Of a DNA stretch of 64,000 bases, positions 26,311 through 46,863 are shown piece by piece. Every line of letters starts with the position of its first letter. The stretch's first letter is position 1. Below the pieces are notes generated by a model. That model searched no databases. It was not told the origin of the DNA and was given only the letters and a program-made list of their open reading frames with translations. Source of the stretch: Ailurus styani. Taxonomy: Eukaryota; Chordata; Mammalia; Carnivora; Ailuridae. The stretch lies in contig LNAC01000278.1 of NCBI GenBank assembly GCA_002007465.1, positions 1,030,333 to 1,094,332 on the forward strand, given 5' to 3'. A program made the position numbers and the translations under genes.

Positions 26311-26399
26311 ACAGGTTACTTGATACTTATTGCTGTTATGCTGGTGTCTCGAACATATTGTGATGTTTGGATGATTCAAAATGGGACACTCATTGAAAG
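26311..26399 (+). CDS. ABCD3: ABCD3 exon 4 (membrane helix 1)
   Basis: 89 nt after acceptor TTTATTTTAG, ending in phase 2 before donor GTACTT. It encodes TGYLILIAVMLVSRTYCDVW followed by MIQNGTLIE and the first two bases of a serine codon (about residues 82-111). The hydrophobic run is the first conserved transmembrane helix, and NGT is a possible N-glycosylation sequon. Its phase-2 end is what the exon 5 pair must match. Confidence 0.97.
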
Positions 26400-26524
26400 G
26401 TACTTTTTTATTCACCTTCCTCCTGTATGTACAAAATACTAATTTGTCTCATATTTAACATTATCTTAAGCAAAAAATAGATTCTCAATTAGGTATAAAT
26501 ACTTAAGTCAAATTAGGTATTTGT

Positions 26525-26700
26525 TCGTTTACTTAACAGATGTTTATTGAGTGTCTCCCATGTGCCAGACACCCTGCTACTCTGTGATAGGGATATACTG
26601 GTGAACAGGAGAGGCTCTGTACCAAGTGCTGCAGAGCTGACACTTAATAGAGAGTTAGGGACAAGGAAACAAATTAAAATGCAGTATAATAAATGCTGTA
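26525..26700 (+). repeat. Old interspersed repeat (MIR/L2-age), family not assigned
   Basis: TTTATTGAGTGTCTCCCATG, TGCCAGACACCCTGCTAC and GGTGAACAGGAGAGG form a familiar old mammalian repeat pattern just downstream of exon 4. Confidence 0.4.
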
Positions 26701-27329
26701 GCAGGGGTTAAAAAAGTCACCAAGTTGGATGTCTAAAATTAATGAGATAATTTAGAGGAAAATATCAAAGCATTTCAGAGAATCATATTGAGAATGTTTA
26801 TTAGAAGAAAAAAACAATTTGTAGACATTTCCTTCAGTTTCTGAAGTTGGTGCTTTATACGTTTTTTCATTATAGTCTTTATACGTATTATATTATCACT
26901 ATAATTGATATTTTGAATTTAAAAACTTATAGTAACATTTATCTGTTAAAGATTTTATTCCTAATGATACCAAATTGAATGTCAGAGTAAAACATTTTTC
27001 TTGGAATTCTCTTTCCTGGCATGCAGTATTTTATCATAAAATTTCTTAAAATACTTAATCTAATAACTTTTTGAATGACACTACTTAAAATTTTTTAATG
27101 CTCCCAAATTTTGAAATGAAGTGCCCCCCACCCCTGCATATTCTTGATTTGCTTCTCAGGATTTGTAGGATGAGGAAGAATGCTTTATGCACATGTTTTC
27201 TGACTCCTCTCTCTAGGCAAATAGAGAAAGTTATTTGCATAGGATTAAAACCCTAACTACATGCCTGAGGACATTTGTAATTGTGTAGGCTCTTGTATTT
27301 AACACAGGTCTACCTGAAACCTGTGGTCA

Positions 27330-29150
27330 GTGCCCTGCCTTTTTTTTTTCTAATTATAGTAATACATGAACAACTTAAAAAGCAATATATGAACACAGCT
27401 TAATGTCAAATAGTGTTACTGGACTTAATCACAGACACATCAGTTCTGTGCCCCATTCTTCCATTTGTAACTCCATTCCCGGAGCCGGTTTTCTTTTTAC
27501 TGTTCATCTCTACCTCTGTATTTCAGTGTAACTTGTGTTACTGTCCTAGATTTTTCAGTTTTAGAGAGTATGCATTTATTTCCTACTTTGAAAGATGCGA
27601 ATTAGCTCTTTTACACTCCTGCCCATGCCCATGCTCATCCTCTTGTGTTGTTTTATCACATTTTTTTGTTAAGTCAGAATTTAATTGTTTACGTGATTTT
27701 GCCTGTTTACCTCTGAGCCACATGCTGTACTTTCGTAGTTTCTTTGGTGTACAACTTTTTGTTTTTCCTGGCATTTGAAAATTACAAGTTTTTGCTTGTG
27801 TACCATAGTTCTTTGCCTACTTCTTACTAATTCAGCCTAAGCTTATTTGACAACACTGTAAAATCTTCTCAGTATTGTAATATGGTCATACACACCAGGG
27901 GATCTTTTGATTTTTGTCTATTACCACCGCACCCTATACCTCTTGTTAGTTTCTTATCTTCCTGCCTAATCTGTACTGATTGCACTTTAAGTCCACTAAA
28001 GAGCAGTCCAGTTTGAATTTGCTTTAATTATGATCTTGGGAATTTCTTATATCTTTCTCTTTTGTGTTAAATAACCTGTTTTCTGAATCCTCTGTCTTCC
28101 TTTTCCTTAGTTTACTTTCTCATTTTGGCATGTACATTGTTTTTCTGAGAAAGGGCTACAACGGAAGTAAATTTTTGAGACCTGAACTCTTATATTCGAT
28201 TGATAGTTTAGCTATATATATACATTCCAACTTGGAAATCATTTTTTGTTAGAATTTTGAAAGCATCACCCTATTGTCCTCTATAGAGCTCAGCAGTTCT
28301 CAGCCTTGGTTGCAGGATGATTAGAATCATCTGGGGAATTTTGAGAACCATTAATACCTGGGCCCACCCCTAGAGATCCTGATTCAATTAGTCATTAGTT
28401 TTTGAAACATCCCAGGTGATTCTAATGTGAAGCCATGGTTAAACACTGCTGGTCTAGTTGCTGCGTTGGGTATGGAGGTCTATTCCTGTGCTGCTTGCCC
28501 TTCCTTAGCAGTGGATCTTTTTTTAGCCCCCTGTGGAAGCTTTTATGATCATTTTTTGTTGTTGGTGGTGGTTGTTTATTGCTGGTGTTTAGGAATTTTA
28601 CTGAATGTCACTGTGAATTTTTTTCCCCACTCTGCTGGACACTAGGTGGACTCTTTTCAGTTGAGAAACTCATTCCGCGTTCTGAGAAATTTTCTTGTGG
28701 TTTTAAAAAAAATTCTTCCTTTCTATTTTTTTTCTTTAATTTTTCTGGAATCTTTATTACTTGAGTGTTGGAATTCAAGATATAAGATAATCAAGTGATT
28801 ATCTTATAATTTCTCTACTGTTTAATCTCTGACATTTTATTTTCTAGGAAATTTCTTTATACTTTATCATCCAGTGAATTTATATTTGTCATCATTTTAT
28901 TTCTAAGAGTTACCTTTTTGTACAGATGTTCATTTTTAGAGCATTCTTGCAAGTCGTGTGGCTTTTTTTTTTTTTCTTTTTAGGTTCCTGCATTGTTTGT
29001 TTTTTCTTGGTCCTTTGTTCTTCTTATTTTTGTTGTTCATATTAGAGGCTTTCCTTAAGTCTGTCACTCTTGCTTGTCTATTCATCTTTAAAAGTGAAGG
29101 GCTAAAAAACTTGCTAGAAGCCAACTCGAGGGCTTATTGATTGTCTGGTC
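27330..29150. repeat. Probable old L1 sequence, antisense (weak)
   Basis: A T-rich + strand with phrases typical of reverse-complement L1 3' sequence around 28660-28920. The borders and the 27330-28000 part are uncertain. Confidence 0.3.
28285..28460 (+). repeat. MER5A-like hAT MITE
   Basis: CAGCAGTTCTCAGCCTTGG, AGAATCATCTGGGGAATTTT and GGTGATTCTAATGTGAAGCC follow the MER5A order. Confidence 0.6.
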
Positions 29151-29703
29151 TTTCCTGAATGGTGTTCGAAGAGAGTCTGGTCATTTTTGTGTGTGTGCCC
29201 TAGTGAGGAATCCTCTTAGAAATTCTAAGAAGTTTGTCATAAACATAATTGAAGTGTTTATTTGTTGCTGCTAGCATATCTATAGCTTTGGAAGATCAAT
29301 TTTACTGCTAAGTTCTGCTTATATGAGCTGTGTAAATAATTAATTGGAGTCCTTTGTATACTATATAGAAGACATGTATGCCCTTTAATATGATTATAAA
29401 ATTTGTACTTTTTCCTTTGATAACTTTATTATCTAAGCACCATATCTGTTAATAAAAATATCTGGAGAAAATGCATTGCCAAGAGTAGGTGGTACATTCA
29501 CTGCTGATGATGGACAAGAGGAAAGTTATTATGTAGCATGAGCCGGCCTGTAATTTTACTAGATAAACTAATCAATTTGTTGGGTACTTAGTTTTAAAAT
29601 ATAGATATGACATAAAGAAAAAAAATGAGGAAAAACCTGTTTCTAAAAAACATTATTTTATACTAATTAAACTTACAGAAAAGTTGCAGAAATAGTAAAA
29701 AGA

Positions 29704-29933
29704 ACTTCCATATACTCTTTTTTTTTTAAGTGTTTTTTTTTAAGATTTTATTTATTTGAGAGAGAGAGAGAGCAAGCATGAGCAGTGGGGAGGGGCAGAG
29801 GGAGAAGCAGACTCCCCGCTGAGTAGGGAGTCTGATGCAGGGCTCAATCCAAGGACCCTGGGAACATGACCTGAGCCAAAGGCAGACGCTTAACCTACTG
29901 AGACACCCAGGTGCTCCACTTCCATATACTCTT
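29704..29933 (-). mobile_element. CAN-SINE 14 with 16-base target duplications
   Basis: Antisense SINE, flanked by ACTTCCATATACTCTT at 29704-29719 and 29918-29933 (identical). It lies about 620 bases upstream of the alternative exon. Confidence 0.93.
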
Positions 29934-30552
29934 AACCCATATTCATCAATTGTGAAAGTCATTTTAAAGTGTTAACTTTCTCCTTGATAAATATTTTTGA
30001 GCTTCTGTGTATGAGATCTTTGATATTTGGTTAAATTTAACATTTTTAAACATTGTGAATTCATAATATGGGACAGTTTTACTTGAAAAACGACACATTG
30101 CTCTAACTTGCTACTAAAGCTACATTATAAATTGGTTTTGTTTTTTTTTCCTTTTTGCTTCTTCCAAAGAGGTTTAGATTCATCTATTTCTGCTAAAAAA
30201 AAAAAAAAAGTCTGAAAGAGATTCATTCTGGTCCTTAATGTATATTTTAATATCCTTTATATCTTTTAGGCTTATTTGTTAGCAGTGCCTAAAGACTTTG
30301 GAGTATGGGCAAATTTTAATAGGACAGACTTCTTTAAGGTAGAAACTGGAAATTCCATGATATGGAGGAGAATCCTTCCTACCTTGTTGCTGCTATAGTG
30401 TAATTATAAAGATATATTTTATTTTCAGGTGTTTGCCTACAGGCATTATAAAGTCATTTTAAAATCACCAAATTATCTTTTATAACGATCCTTACATGTT
30501 TTAGAATATGATACGAACTGTAAAATTACTCTTTATTATTTTTCTTTTGCAG

Positions 30553-30622
30553 TGGAATAATAAGCAGAAATAAGGCTTTATTCAAGAAACCATTTTTTAA
30601 ATTTATAGCTGCTACTCCAATG
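30553..30622 (+). CDS. ABCD3: Candidate alternative exon 5 (5-alt), diverged duplicate of exon 5
   Basis: A 70-nt open segment between acceptor TTTTTCTTTTGCAG and donor GTAAAC. Read from the phase-2 end of exon 4 it gives Ser followed by 23 codons starting GIISRNKALFKK and ending FIAATPM. Canonical exon 5 gives Ser followed by 23 codons starting GIIGRSRKDFKR and ending FITAMPL. Eleven of the 23 full codons encode identical residues (codons 1-3, 5, 10, 11, 15, 17, 18, 20, 22), and several others are conservative (R/K twice, S/N, L/M). By my count nucleotide identity is 37 of 70. It would replace residues around 112-134, the linker into membrane helix 2. The matching length, phases and splice sites argue for an ancient exon duplication kept as a mutually exclusive exon. 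A decaying copy is possible. I do not know whether it is already annotated in any species. Confidence 0.8.
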
Positions 30623-31569
30623 GTAAACCGTTGCTGAATGATAGCATGTGCTTCACCAAGTTTTATAATCTTGTGTGTTTCACAGCTTGGGCAGCACTAA
30701 AGCACTTTGGTTTTATGTGAAGTTTGGTTCAAACAATTTTAATCTAAACCTCTAAACTTTTTGTACTGTTTTAATTGCTCTTGTTTTTAATATTCTGATT
30801 TCTAGAAACAACAGTTTTATGTGGTTGAATTTTAGCTTTTTTCTAGCTCACCTTAAGCTTAAGAAATTATTTAGCACTTCTATCAAAATTGGACTATTAA
30901 TTTTTCTATCAGTCTAAAGTAACATTTCCCAAAGTATGTTCTTTGGAATGCCAGCTATGATAGAGGAAATGATACCTGTTACGAATCCCTCTCAGAGAGT
31001 TTTAATGCACAAGTTTTATGTTAAGAGCTTTGAGAACGTCTTTGAAAAGGACCTTTGTTAGTTTTTTTTAACCCAGGTTTTCTCAAATTTATTTGAGCAT
31101 ATGCCTTTTTTGCTCTAAAACACCAGCTAACATTACTTGGCATTATTCCCCTAGTCCCTCATAAAAATCAGATTATTTCTGTATCATATATCGTGTCGTT
31201 TTTTTTGTATGTGGAGCTAGGTTTAAATCATTTAGCGCAGTGTTTTTCAAAATATATTTTACTTACATTTGGCATTATTAGTAAACATTCATTGGAAAAA
31301 GACTATGTGGTCAAATAAGTTATATCTTTTTAGAGATCATAGACATATGGTACTCAGAGATCCTTTACTTATATGATATAATGGTTTTCAAAAAGTAGTA
31401 GAATTCTTACGTTAAATAAGTTCTTAATGGATATTTTTAGAACAGGTAGATATGTAAAATAAATTAAAAACGTGAAAGAGGAGTTGGTCTAGTTGAAGTG
31501 TTCCACAGATCTGCAGCCTCTAGAGAACCATTCTGAGGCTCTGGGGAACCCCGCTAGTCTACTACTCTC

Positions 31570-31790
31570 TGACTTATGATTTAGTCCTAGTGTCAGCAGA
31601 TAAGCTCTGTGGGTCCAATCCCACTGCCGTCTGTTTGGGAAAATTTTATTAAGATGCAGCCAGTCTCATTCTTGGCTGTTTTTCTTCTGCGATCAGAACG
31701 GAATAATCAGAACAGAGCCCTTCTGGCCCACAGAAGCATAAAATATTTACTCTTGACCTTTTACAGCGAGAGTTTGCTGATCTCTCATTA
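31570..31790 (-). repeat. hAT-type MITE, same family as 42190-42560 in reverse
   Basis: CTCTGTGGGTCCAATCCCAC, ATAAAATATTTACTCTTGAC and GAGAGTTTGCTGATCTCTC form the reverse complement of the family whose forward end reads GGGGTCAGCAAACT at 42190. Confidence 0.5.
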
Positions 31791-32222
31791 GGATGTCTCT
31801 GCCATTCATACAAATGAGAATCAGGGTATTAAAATATTTGAAAACAAATACCAGTTTATTTCATCCATAATAACCCATTGCTGGCTCTATAAAGTTGTTA
31901 GTTGTTTTAACATCTAAACCCCTTTTGTGGCAGCTAAGCCTTTTTTTAAATTACCATTTTTTAGGAAGGAAAGAACTAAGGAAATCATTGTTATTTAATT
32001 TTGCCACTCAGAGAGTGATTTTCAAGATGCCTATTTCAAATGGTCAAATTTCAAAAGTTGGAAACCTGTTTGTGCAAGAAAATGTTTTTCAGCATCTTTT
32101 TTTCTTATTGAATCTTTTGAGTCAATAAAAACTTCCAAGAGTAATTTTAGAGCTTTACAGGTTTTCTTGGAGTACAATATTGCTTCTTTCGCAACTAATG
32201 CATTGCATGTGGTGGTTTGCAG

Positions 32223-32292
32223 TGGTATCATTGGTCGTAGCAGGAAAGATTTCAAGAGATACTTATTCAACTTCATCACCGCCATGCCTCTC
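32223..32292 (+). CDS. ABCD3: ABCD3 exon 5 (canonical)
   Basis: 70 nt, phase 2 to phase 0, donor GTAAGT. It encodes the end of a serine codon, then GIIGRSRKDFKRYLFNFITA and MPL (about residues 112-134), the linker after helix 1 and the start of helix 2. The acceptor region is unusually purine-rich (ATGTGGTGGTTTGCAG), with a good branch-like CTAAT about 25 bases upstream. The competing upstream copy has a strong pyrimidine tract. Confidence 0.96.
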
Positions 32293-33613
32293 GTAAGTGT
32301 AATTCTTTAAAAATCTTTACATAGGGAAAAAATTGGATCTTCCTAAAATCTTCAGACATTTTTACTTCTTAAGTTTACTTTAAATGGATTTATGGTACTA
32401 AGGTACCTATCTCAAGTTTCGTTTTGTAACTTACAGCAGAACTTTTCTACGTAAACCTTTATATGAGACAGTAAAAAAGGAATGAGGTTGGGTTCAGTTT
32501 CATTGTATACATGTGTGGATGTGTCCATATGCGTTGTTTTGTTCTAACCTTTAGGCCAGGGTTTCTGTGATGTTTAGTAGCATCCCACTGGATGGCAGGA
32601 GTGCCCCTCCCCCAGTTTGAACAACCCCAGATGTCTCCAGGACATTGGCAAGTGTCCTGAGGGGCAGATAGGAGTGGTGGCAAAAGCACCCTGATTGGGA
32701 AACATTGCTGCTTTAGGCCATAAACTATTATAGTAGCTTGAACCACTGATGTAGTTGAAGTGAAATTGGAATTTAGTATCTGAATTTATTAAAAATAAAG
32801 GTCAGTGTTTGGTTAAAATCATAAGTGGTATTCTCAGCTTGGTTCTTTATTGCTACTACAAGAATTTTAGTATTATAAATACGGGAGTAAAAAAGAAAAG
32901 CTTGATTGTAAACTCCAGCTAATTAGAGAATATGTCAGAGATTTAATAAAGCTTGAGGCTACATGTACACGGCTTTTAGACCTTTAGAGAAAGTTGAGAT
33001 AAGTAGTGTAGAAGTCATTAAGAGATGGAGATTCAGTGGACAACCATTGTTTTCTTGAGAAAATGTTTATGTAAATGTGAGTTTGGAACTATGGAAGAAT
33101 TCATTTCAATGTAATGATGGGAACGAGAAGTAAAGATGACTCTAGAAATAATCTGGAAATGGTATGAGTTGGTATGAAATTTATAGTATTTTTTTAACAA
33201 GTGCAAATAGAATTCATTGTCTAGGGTTGTAGTGCTTGTAGAAGGAAACAGAAGATACAAACATAAATGTCAGGGCTCCTTTACATTGGATCCAAAGGGG
33301 ACAGATTTGGCTTTTTTTGTTGACAAAAGAAGAATCAAGATGCTTCTCATAATTAATGATATTAACGTATTCTAAAACTGAGTGTCAAGTAGAGTTTTAA
33401 TATATCAGCATAACAGAGCCAATTGCATTTGGTTTGGCATGTTCTCTTAGTATCTTTGCACACTCTGAGTAAAACAGAAGTGAATCCTATCAATTTGGAC
33501 GATTGGTTATAAAAATCATAGGATTTGGGGACAGAGCCAATGCTAGAGCAATAGATTATTATTTTGTAAGTAAAAATGTAGTAAAACCAGTAATATGTGT
33601 TTGTTTGTTTCAG
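32293..33613 (+). other. ABCD3: Intron 5
   Basis: About 1.3 kb. It contains part of an old DNA-transposon-like repeat (32545-32725) that has a second copy at 62280-62505. The remainder is unassigned. Confidence 0.85.
32545..32725 (+). repeat. Old DNA-transposon-like repeat (partial), same family as 62280-62505
   Basis: GATGTTTAGTAGCATCCCAC and AGATGTCTCCAGGACATTGG correspond in order to TAGGATATTTGACAGCATCT and AATGTCTCCAAACATTGCTA in the second copy. Confidence 0.55.
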
Positions 33614-33711
33614 ATCTCTCTAGTTAATAACTTCTTGAAGTTTGGGTTGAATGAGCTCAAACTGTGCTTCCGAGTAAGACTAACTAAATACCTCTATGAG
33701 GAGTATCTCCA
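33614..33711 (+). CDS. ABCD3: ABCD3 exon 6 (membrane helix 2 continuation)
   Basis: 98 nt after acceptor TTTGTTTCAG, ending in phase 2 at donor GTAAGT. It encodes ISLVNNFLKFGLNELKLCFR then VRLTKYLYEEYL, with the glutamine codon split into the next exon (about residues 135-167). The RxRLTKYLYEEYL stretch is a conserved cytosolic coupling region of ABC-D proteins. A young SINE sits only about 20 bases beyond its donor site. Confidence 0.97.
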
Positions 33712-33716
33712 GTAAG

Positions 33717-33946
33717 TGATAACCTATTTTTTTTTTTAAGATTTTATTTATTTTATTTGACACAGAGAGAGAGACCACAAGTAGGCAGAGAGGCAGGCAG
33801 AGAGACAGGGAGAGGAGGAAGCAGGCTCCCTGCTGAGCAGAGAGCCCGATGCGGGCCTCGATCCCAGGACGCTGAGACCATGACCTGAGTCGAAAGCAGA
33901 GGCTTCAACCCACTGAGCCACCCAGGCGCCCTGATAACCTATTTTT
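33717..33946 (-). mobile_element. CAN-SINE 15 with 15-base target duplications, 20 bases from the exon 6 donor
   Basis: Antisense SINE at 33732-33931, flanked by TGATAACCTATTTTT at 33717-33731 and 33932-33946. Its poly-T and TTTTTAAG run on the + strand directly follows the exon 6 splice donor. Confidence 0.94.
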
Positions 33947-46787: not shown

Positions 46788-46863
46788 GTATTGAAGAAGG
46801 AGCACAAGTCATTCCCTTGATACCTGGTACTGGAGAAATCATCAATGCTGATAACATTATAAA
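46788..46863 (+). CDS. ABCD3: ABCD3 exon 15
   Basis: 76 nt after an 81-base intron, acceptor CCACCTAAG, donor GTATGT. It encodes the end of Gly, IEEGAQVIPLIPGTGEIINA and DNII plus two bases of Lys (about residues 417-441), the lead-in to the nucleotide-binding domain. Confidence 0.96.

Follow-up and report, generated by a model that had tools for sequence, protein, structure and literature searches.

The locus analysed here raises the question of whether ABCD3, the gene for PMP70, carries two versions of its fifth exon that are used one at a time. PMP70 is a common peroxisome marker. The window, that is, the whole stretch of 64,000 nucleotides (64 kb), allowed us to delimit coding exons 2-22 of ABCD3 on the + strand, and all 21, like an alternative copy of exon 5, are bordered by AG and GT. 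A search of the window did not find the coding part of exon 1, and no known non-coding RNA reached the Rfam gathering score in the window.

The identity of the gene was straightforward. The best matches of the window protein were solved ABCD3 chains, with an E-value of 0 and alignment from end to end, and the two domains of ABCD3 (PF06472 and PF00005) were found, as scored on the dog alternative form and the jaguar canonical form. The window canonical protein was compared with the first 120 related proteins: a jaguar protein was closest (585 of 598 residues), followed by one of dog (578), and the source is therefore probably a carnivore. The window protein reads GIEEGAQ around exon 15 (46788-46863), one residue longer than the solved ABCD3 chain (GIE-GVQ). 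The features around the two copies are the following.

26311-26399, + strand: ABCD3 exon 4 (exon map), shared upstream partner, ending with NGTLIE and AG (Glu111 and the first two bases of Ser112); weak donor AAG/GTACTT
30533-30552, + strand: polypyrimidine tract and AG acceptor of the alternative exon, 14/16 pyrimidines at -20 to -5
30553-30622, + strand: alternative copy of exon 5, completing Ser112 and encoding GIISRNKALFKKPFFKFIAATPM; 23/23 residues as in goat P0001-P0003 and dog P0004
30623-30628, + strand: alternative exon donor GTAAAC, third weakest of 22 exons by a simple score
32203-32222, + strand: acceptor of canonical exon 5, with the fewest pyrimidines of 22 exons (9/16)
32223-32292, + strand: canonical exon 5, encoding GIIGRSRKDFKRYLFNFITAMPL, the canonical type in the aligned solved ABCD3 chains
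32293-32298, + strand: canonical exon 5 donor GTAAGT
33614-33711, + strand: ABCD3 exon 6 (exon map), shared downstream partner

Two short interspersed elements were also recognised by eye, one upstream of the alternative exon (29740-29925) and one just past exon 6 (33730-33935), both of which we take to resemble carnivore tRNA-derived SINEs. Canonical exon 5 reads FITAMPL in this animal, with a Thr131 (32278-32280) that is absent from the 27 distinct canonical segments counted, 23 of which have Ala.

Both copies are 70 nt long, are entered in the same phase (1 nt, then 23 codons) and are free of stops. The acceptor of the block at 30553-30622 ends with CTTTTGCAG. The two copies share 37 of 70 nucleotides and 11 of 23 residues. 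The preliminary description of this DNA had reported the length, the phase, the acceptor, the donor GTAAAC, the open frame and these two counts; all were re-read or recounted directly, with the same outcome. The pair thus presents what is expected of tandem-duplicated mutually exclusive exons, i.e., neighbouring homologous exons that agree in length and phase, have usable splice sites and contain no stop.

We then asked how far such a likeness exceeds chance. Open (stop-free) 70-mers of both window strands were scored against exon 5 by BLOSUM62. The block scored 55, exon 5 against itself 119. When flanking AG and GT were required, there were 94 open 70-mers on both strands, the two exons among them, and the third best of these scored -2; without restriction on position, the next best of 31,157 open 70-mers scored 26. 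Across 300 introns randomised to the same 4-mer statistics, the highest score was 11 and 55 was never reached. The same kind of scan, for AG/GT-flanked stretches of equal length, gave no convincing second copy of the other 20 ABCD3 exons (best score 16). The low nucleotide identity (just 37/70) is what a fortuitous resemblance of intron sequence to exon 5 would have in its favour, but no randomised intron (0/300) came near the score, and the orthologous protein segments of other vertebrates described below already refute it; the chance that it holds is negligible. The earlier statement that the resemblance goes beyond chance is upheld by these values (55 versus -2 for the next flanked candidate and 11 for the best random intron).

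Three protein searches, in which 201 of 205 candidates (best 120 listed), 102 of 110 and 10 of 12 passed, gave 168 distinct proteins among the matches listed. The 23-residue block could be parsed in 167 of the 168, and the proteins were sorted by block positions 3-5 and 8-10. Among these matches, 94 proteins were of the alternative type and 71 of the canonical type, one held both (P0017), and those of sea urchin (P0054) and lamprey (P0151) fell in neither. Residues outside the sorting rule separated the types as well: residue 126 was Phe in 52/52 distinct alternative segments and Leu in 28/28 canonical ones, and residue 133 was Ile (once Thr) in alternative segments versus Met in canonical ones, with no exception. 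Residue 116 was Ser (once Asn, once Tyr) in alternative segments versus Gly in canonical segments, a clean split that is partly built in, as the rule used this residue. The mean identity over the 23 residues was 16.8 for pairs of alternative segments, 18.2 for pairs of canonical ones and 8.2 between types; no distinct segment was closer to the opposite type, and a tree of the 23 columns gave a support of 0.977 to the canonical clade and of 0.845 to the alternative clade.

Among amphibians, the alternative type was present in the caecilian Rhinatrema and in the frogs Pelobates, Anomaloglossus, Pseudophryne, Hyla, Engystomops, Bombina and Ascaphus; among fishes, it was present in many teleosts. 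Many of these entries are named 'isoform X2'. In mammals, it was found among the matches listed in 4 entries from 2 species, goat (3 models, P0001-P0003) and dog (P0004, which stands for a cluster of 30 sequences), all identical to the window at 23/23 residues; goat and dog models may share projected evidence. The other mammals among the matches listed, including human (P0059) and mouse (P0049), had the canonical block. Since clusters at 90% identity merge isoforms, such canonical-only listings are weak evidence either way. The 9 shark proteins among the matches listed were of the canonical type only. The lamprey segment is mixed, with Ser116 together with Leu126 and Met133, and stood beside the alternative clade (support 0.875) in the 23-column tree, which is too short to decide; the sea urchin segment is also mixed in type. 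A salmonid protein named abcd3b (P0131) has the alternative type, which suggests, if this name is right, an origin before the teleost genome duplication.

How the two copies would be used can be read from the frame. With either copy alone, the 598-codon spliced frame remains open, whereas both copies lead to a stop at codon 104 and neither copy to a stop at codon 78 (numbering of the window's partial frame). One copy keeps the frame, both or none break it, and a full-length protein therefore needs exactly one copy. At the level of proteins, 167 of the 168 could be parsed with one block and both blocks were found in a single one, the catfish (Tachysurus) model P0017, where the alternative block precedes the canonical one as in the window. 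Two pairs of annotated frog proteins, from species other than that of the window, differ by the swapped segment alone: isoforms X1 and X2 of Pelobates fuscus (P0094/P0005; 653 residues) show 11 differences and those of Pseudophryne corroboree (P0098/P0007; 657 residues) show 12, all within the block. Proteins named 'isoform' in databases are largely automatic gene models. The mutually exclusive use proposed in the preliminary description gains support from both the frame logic and the two frog pairs.

The block could also act as a poison exon. Joined with exon 5, or with exon 5 lost, it would change the reading frame, so that nonsense-mediated decay would silence ABCD3, and its peptide would be irrelevant. 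The stop that soon follows double inclusion is in line with such a role, and so is the catfish model P0017, which joins both copies. However, conservation of the 23 residues at the protein level extends from fish to mammals and includes constrained positions, and the two frog isoforms carry the block alone within an otherwise full-length protein. We consider this role improbable. On the sequences compared here, the block is a real, ancient and conserved copy of exon 5 that most likely serves ABCD3 as a mutually exclusive exon. Splicing in this animal would join exon 4 to either copy and that copy to exon 6, and transcripts with both copies or with none would be removed by nonsense-mediated decay. 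Taken together, an ancient pair of homologous, mutually exclusive exons in ABCD3 (exon 4, one copy, exon 6) appears highly probable; the choice between the two is probably regulated, and their swap would alter the region of the first two membrane helices (TM1 and TM2).

Proteins of fish, of amphibians and of at least some mammals include both types, and the catfish order is that of the window; the duplication thus predates the fish-tetrapod split, which lies about 430 million years back. The alternative type in teleosts, amphibians, goat and dog points to an ancient origin with both copies kept, and it is with these proteins that the earlier proposal of an old exon duplication under protein-level constraint now agrees. 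The distance between carnivores and artiodactyls is about 0.3 substitutions per site. In a neutral simulation, all 23 residues were kept between carnivore and goat in 0 of 100,000 cases at 0.25 substitutions per site or more, in 4 of 100,000 at 0.20 and in 657 of 100,000 at 0.10. Intact splice sites without stops, taken alone, were kept by chance in about a quarter of the cases at 0.3 substitutions per site, and so prove little. As judged from this conservation, both copies stayed under protein-level selection.

These figures also bear on the idea that the block is a relic, an exon functional in fish and amphibians whose splicing was lost in this lineage and in many mammals. This idea draws on the few mammalian entries with the alternative exon (4, from goat and dog) against the canonical block of the other mammals listed, and on the weakness of the alternative exon donor. 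Nevertheless, AG and GT are intact and no stop has appeared, the 23/23 residues in common with goat and dog are far above what simulated neutral drift leaves, and clustering at 90% identity hides mammalian isoforms. A relic is in our opinion unlikely, to about the same degree as a poison exon, and a retained, mutually exclusive exon is the reading followed below.

The splice signals of the 22 exons were ranked with a simple consensus score. The alternative exon combines a good pyrimidine tract (14/16) with the third weakest donor, whereas canonical exon 5 has the poorest tract (9/16) and the fifth weakest donor. The donor of exon 4 (AAG/GTACTT, 26397-26405) scored 5.33, the second weakest value, with only exon 22 lower. 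As the tract of the canonical exon is the poorest of the gene and the alternative donor is weak, the choice between copies is probably regulated, and it may begin at the exon 4 donor. Such a pattern of weak signals is usual for regulated exons, and is no proof of regulation. RNA pairing was considered as a cause of exclusivity, based on an inverted repeat between the alternative acceptor (30518-30546) and the intron before exon 5 (32124-32152). This candidate was rejected, as 56 of 400 random stretches of 26400-33613 had a duplex energy at least as good. Thus, with RNA pairing tested, no mechanism of exclusivity beyond the frame was found.

In an alignment with solved ABCD3 chains, the block corresponds to residues 113-135, 12 of which differ between the window copies. 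Solved canonical structures (PDB 9ngj, 9w62, 8z9x, 8z0f and others) would match an alternative form in all other exons and in 11 of the 23 segment residues, including 114, 115, 117, 122 and 134, but not in the remaining 12; of the five chains listed, the two ABCD3 sequences displayed in the alignment have the canonical segment. Ile114, Ile115, Arg117 and the invariant Phe122 are kept between types, as is Glu111, the last full codon of exon 4. According to the available portion of PMC11369193, Glu111 is in contact with the CoA adenine, and ATP binding tilts TM2 away from the cavity.

An AlphaFold model of the dog alternative form, built with 43 aligned sequences, was poor overall (mean pLDDT 53.6, pTM 0.42), with ten-residue blocks over 111-140 at a pLDDT of 72-84. 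It shows one helix up to residue 115 and another starting at 119, separated by a break at 116-118. It places Glu111 at the end of the first helix, versus in TM2 in the accessible text of PMC11369193, and the TM1/TM2 border is thus approximate. In this model, the swapped segment reaches from the end of TM1 over the turn and takes in half of TM2, the first, and these parts would be exchanged together, with Gly or Ser at residue 116 of a turn predicted to lie on the matrix side. The preliminary description had placed the substitutions mainly in a polar linker. The linker is indeed changed, but the differences extend beyond it, across the turn between the helices and the initial half of TM2.

Judging by their spacing, residues 122, 126, 129 and 133 would share one helical face. 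Residues 126 and 133 differ between types throughout; residue 129, which is Phe in both window copies and Tyr in most non-mammalian alternative segments, differs between types outside the mammals seen. The fit to PF06472 was 344.3 bits for the dog alternative form and 345.2 bits for the jaguar canonical form. Vertebrates probably make two ABCD3 forms that differ where the first two membrane helices meet. We infer altered gating or substrate handling, and the most likely effect would be a re-tuned outward opening or acyl-CoA handling rather than a loss of transport. Substrate entry, partner choice and targeting, which the preliminary description had named as possibly affected, would be further candidate effects.

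Tandem-duplicated mutually exclusive exons are a well-known kind, of which the ABCD3 pair is most likely an example. In human genes, 236 tandem duplicated exon substitutions are annotated, as stated in the portion of PMC9741552 available. The cases described there resemble the ABCD3 pair: they involve neighbouring homologous exons, are ancient, with more than 90% having bony-fish counterparts, derive for one half from internal, mutually exclusive exons and are enriched in transmembrane proteins. However, the main text of this catalogue does not name ABCD3, nor do those of PMC5740500, PMC4465641, PMC7954323 and PMC9013439. ABCD3 is mentioned among the genes mis-spliced in leukaemia with mutant U1 snRNA in the available part of PMC8773931. 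The alternative exon is annotated in databases, often as 'isoform X2', and is therefore not new to annotation pipelines. In the literature among the matches listed, we recognised no description of an alternative exon 5 of ABCD3, which does not prove its absence; a dedicated study of the exon pair seems to be missing.

The closest parallel belongs to the same pathway. ACOX1 (peroxisomal acyl-CoA oxidase 1), which takes over acyl-CoAs in peroxisomal beta-oxidation, has duplicated exons that are internal and mutually exclusive. Its duplicated coding exon serves as an example in the consulted portion of PMC9741552, and its splice variants are conserved in vertebrates, as reported in the available part of PMC8919083, where PMP70 is itself used as the peroxisome marker. 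In contrast to ABCD3, where the swap concerns a membrane transporter and no study was found among the matches listed, ACOX1 is a soluble matrix enzyme whose isoforms have been studied.

ABCD3 imports branched-chain acyl-CoAs into peroxisomes and its dysfunction leads to liver disease (PMC11369193, available text), and Ceapins act through ABCD3, as given in the accessible part of PMC6588346. The structural work that we have seen used the canonical form. If a second conserved form exists, the substrate range, tissue differences and drug effects such as those of Ceapins may have been measured on one isoform. The natural swap would also offer a ready-made experiment on the role of the TM1-TM2 hairpin in type IV ABC transporters. 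As a tentative proposal, to which we attach a rather low probability, PMP70 could represent two vertebrate transporters, made through a regulated exon switch that is about 430 million years old or older. This switch would reset the matrix-side TM1-TM2 hairpin and hence the choice of acyl-CoAs released or the speed of their release, possibly in concert with the exon switch of ACOX1, the next enzyme of the pathway.
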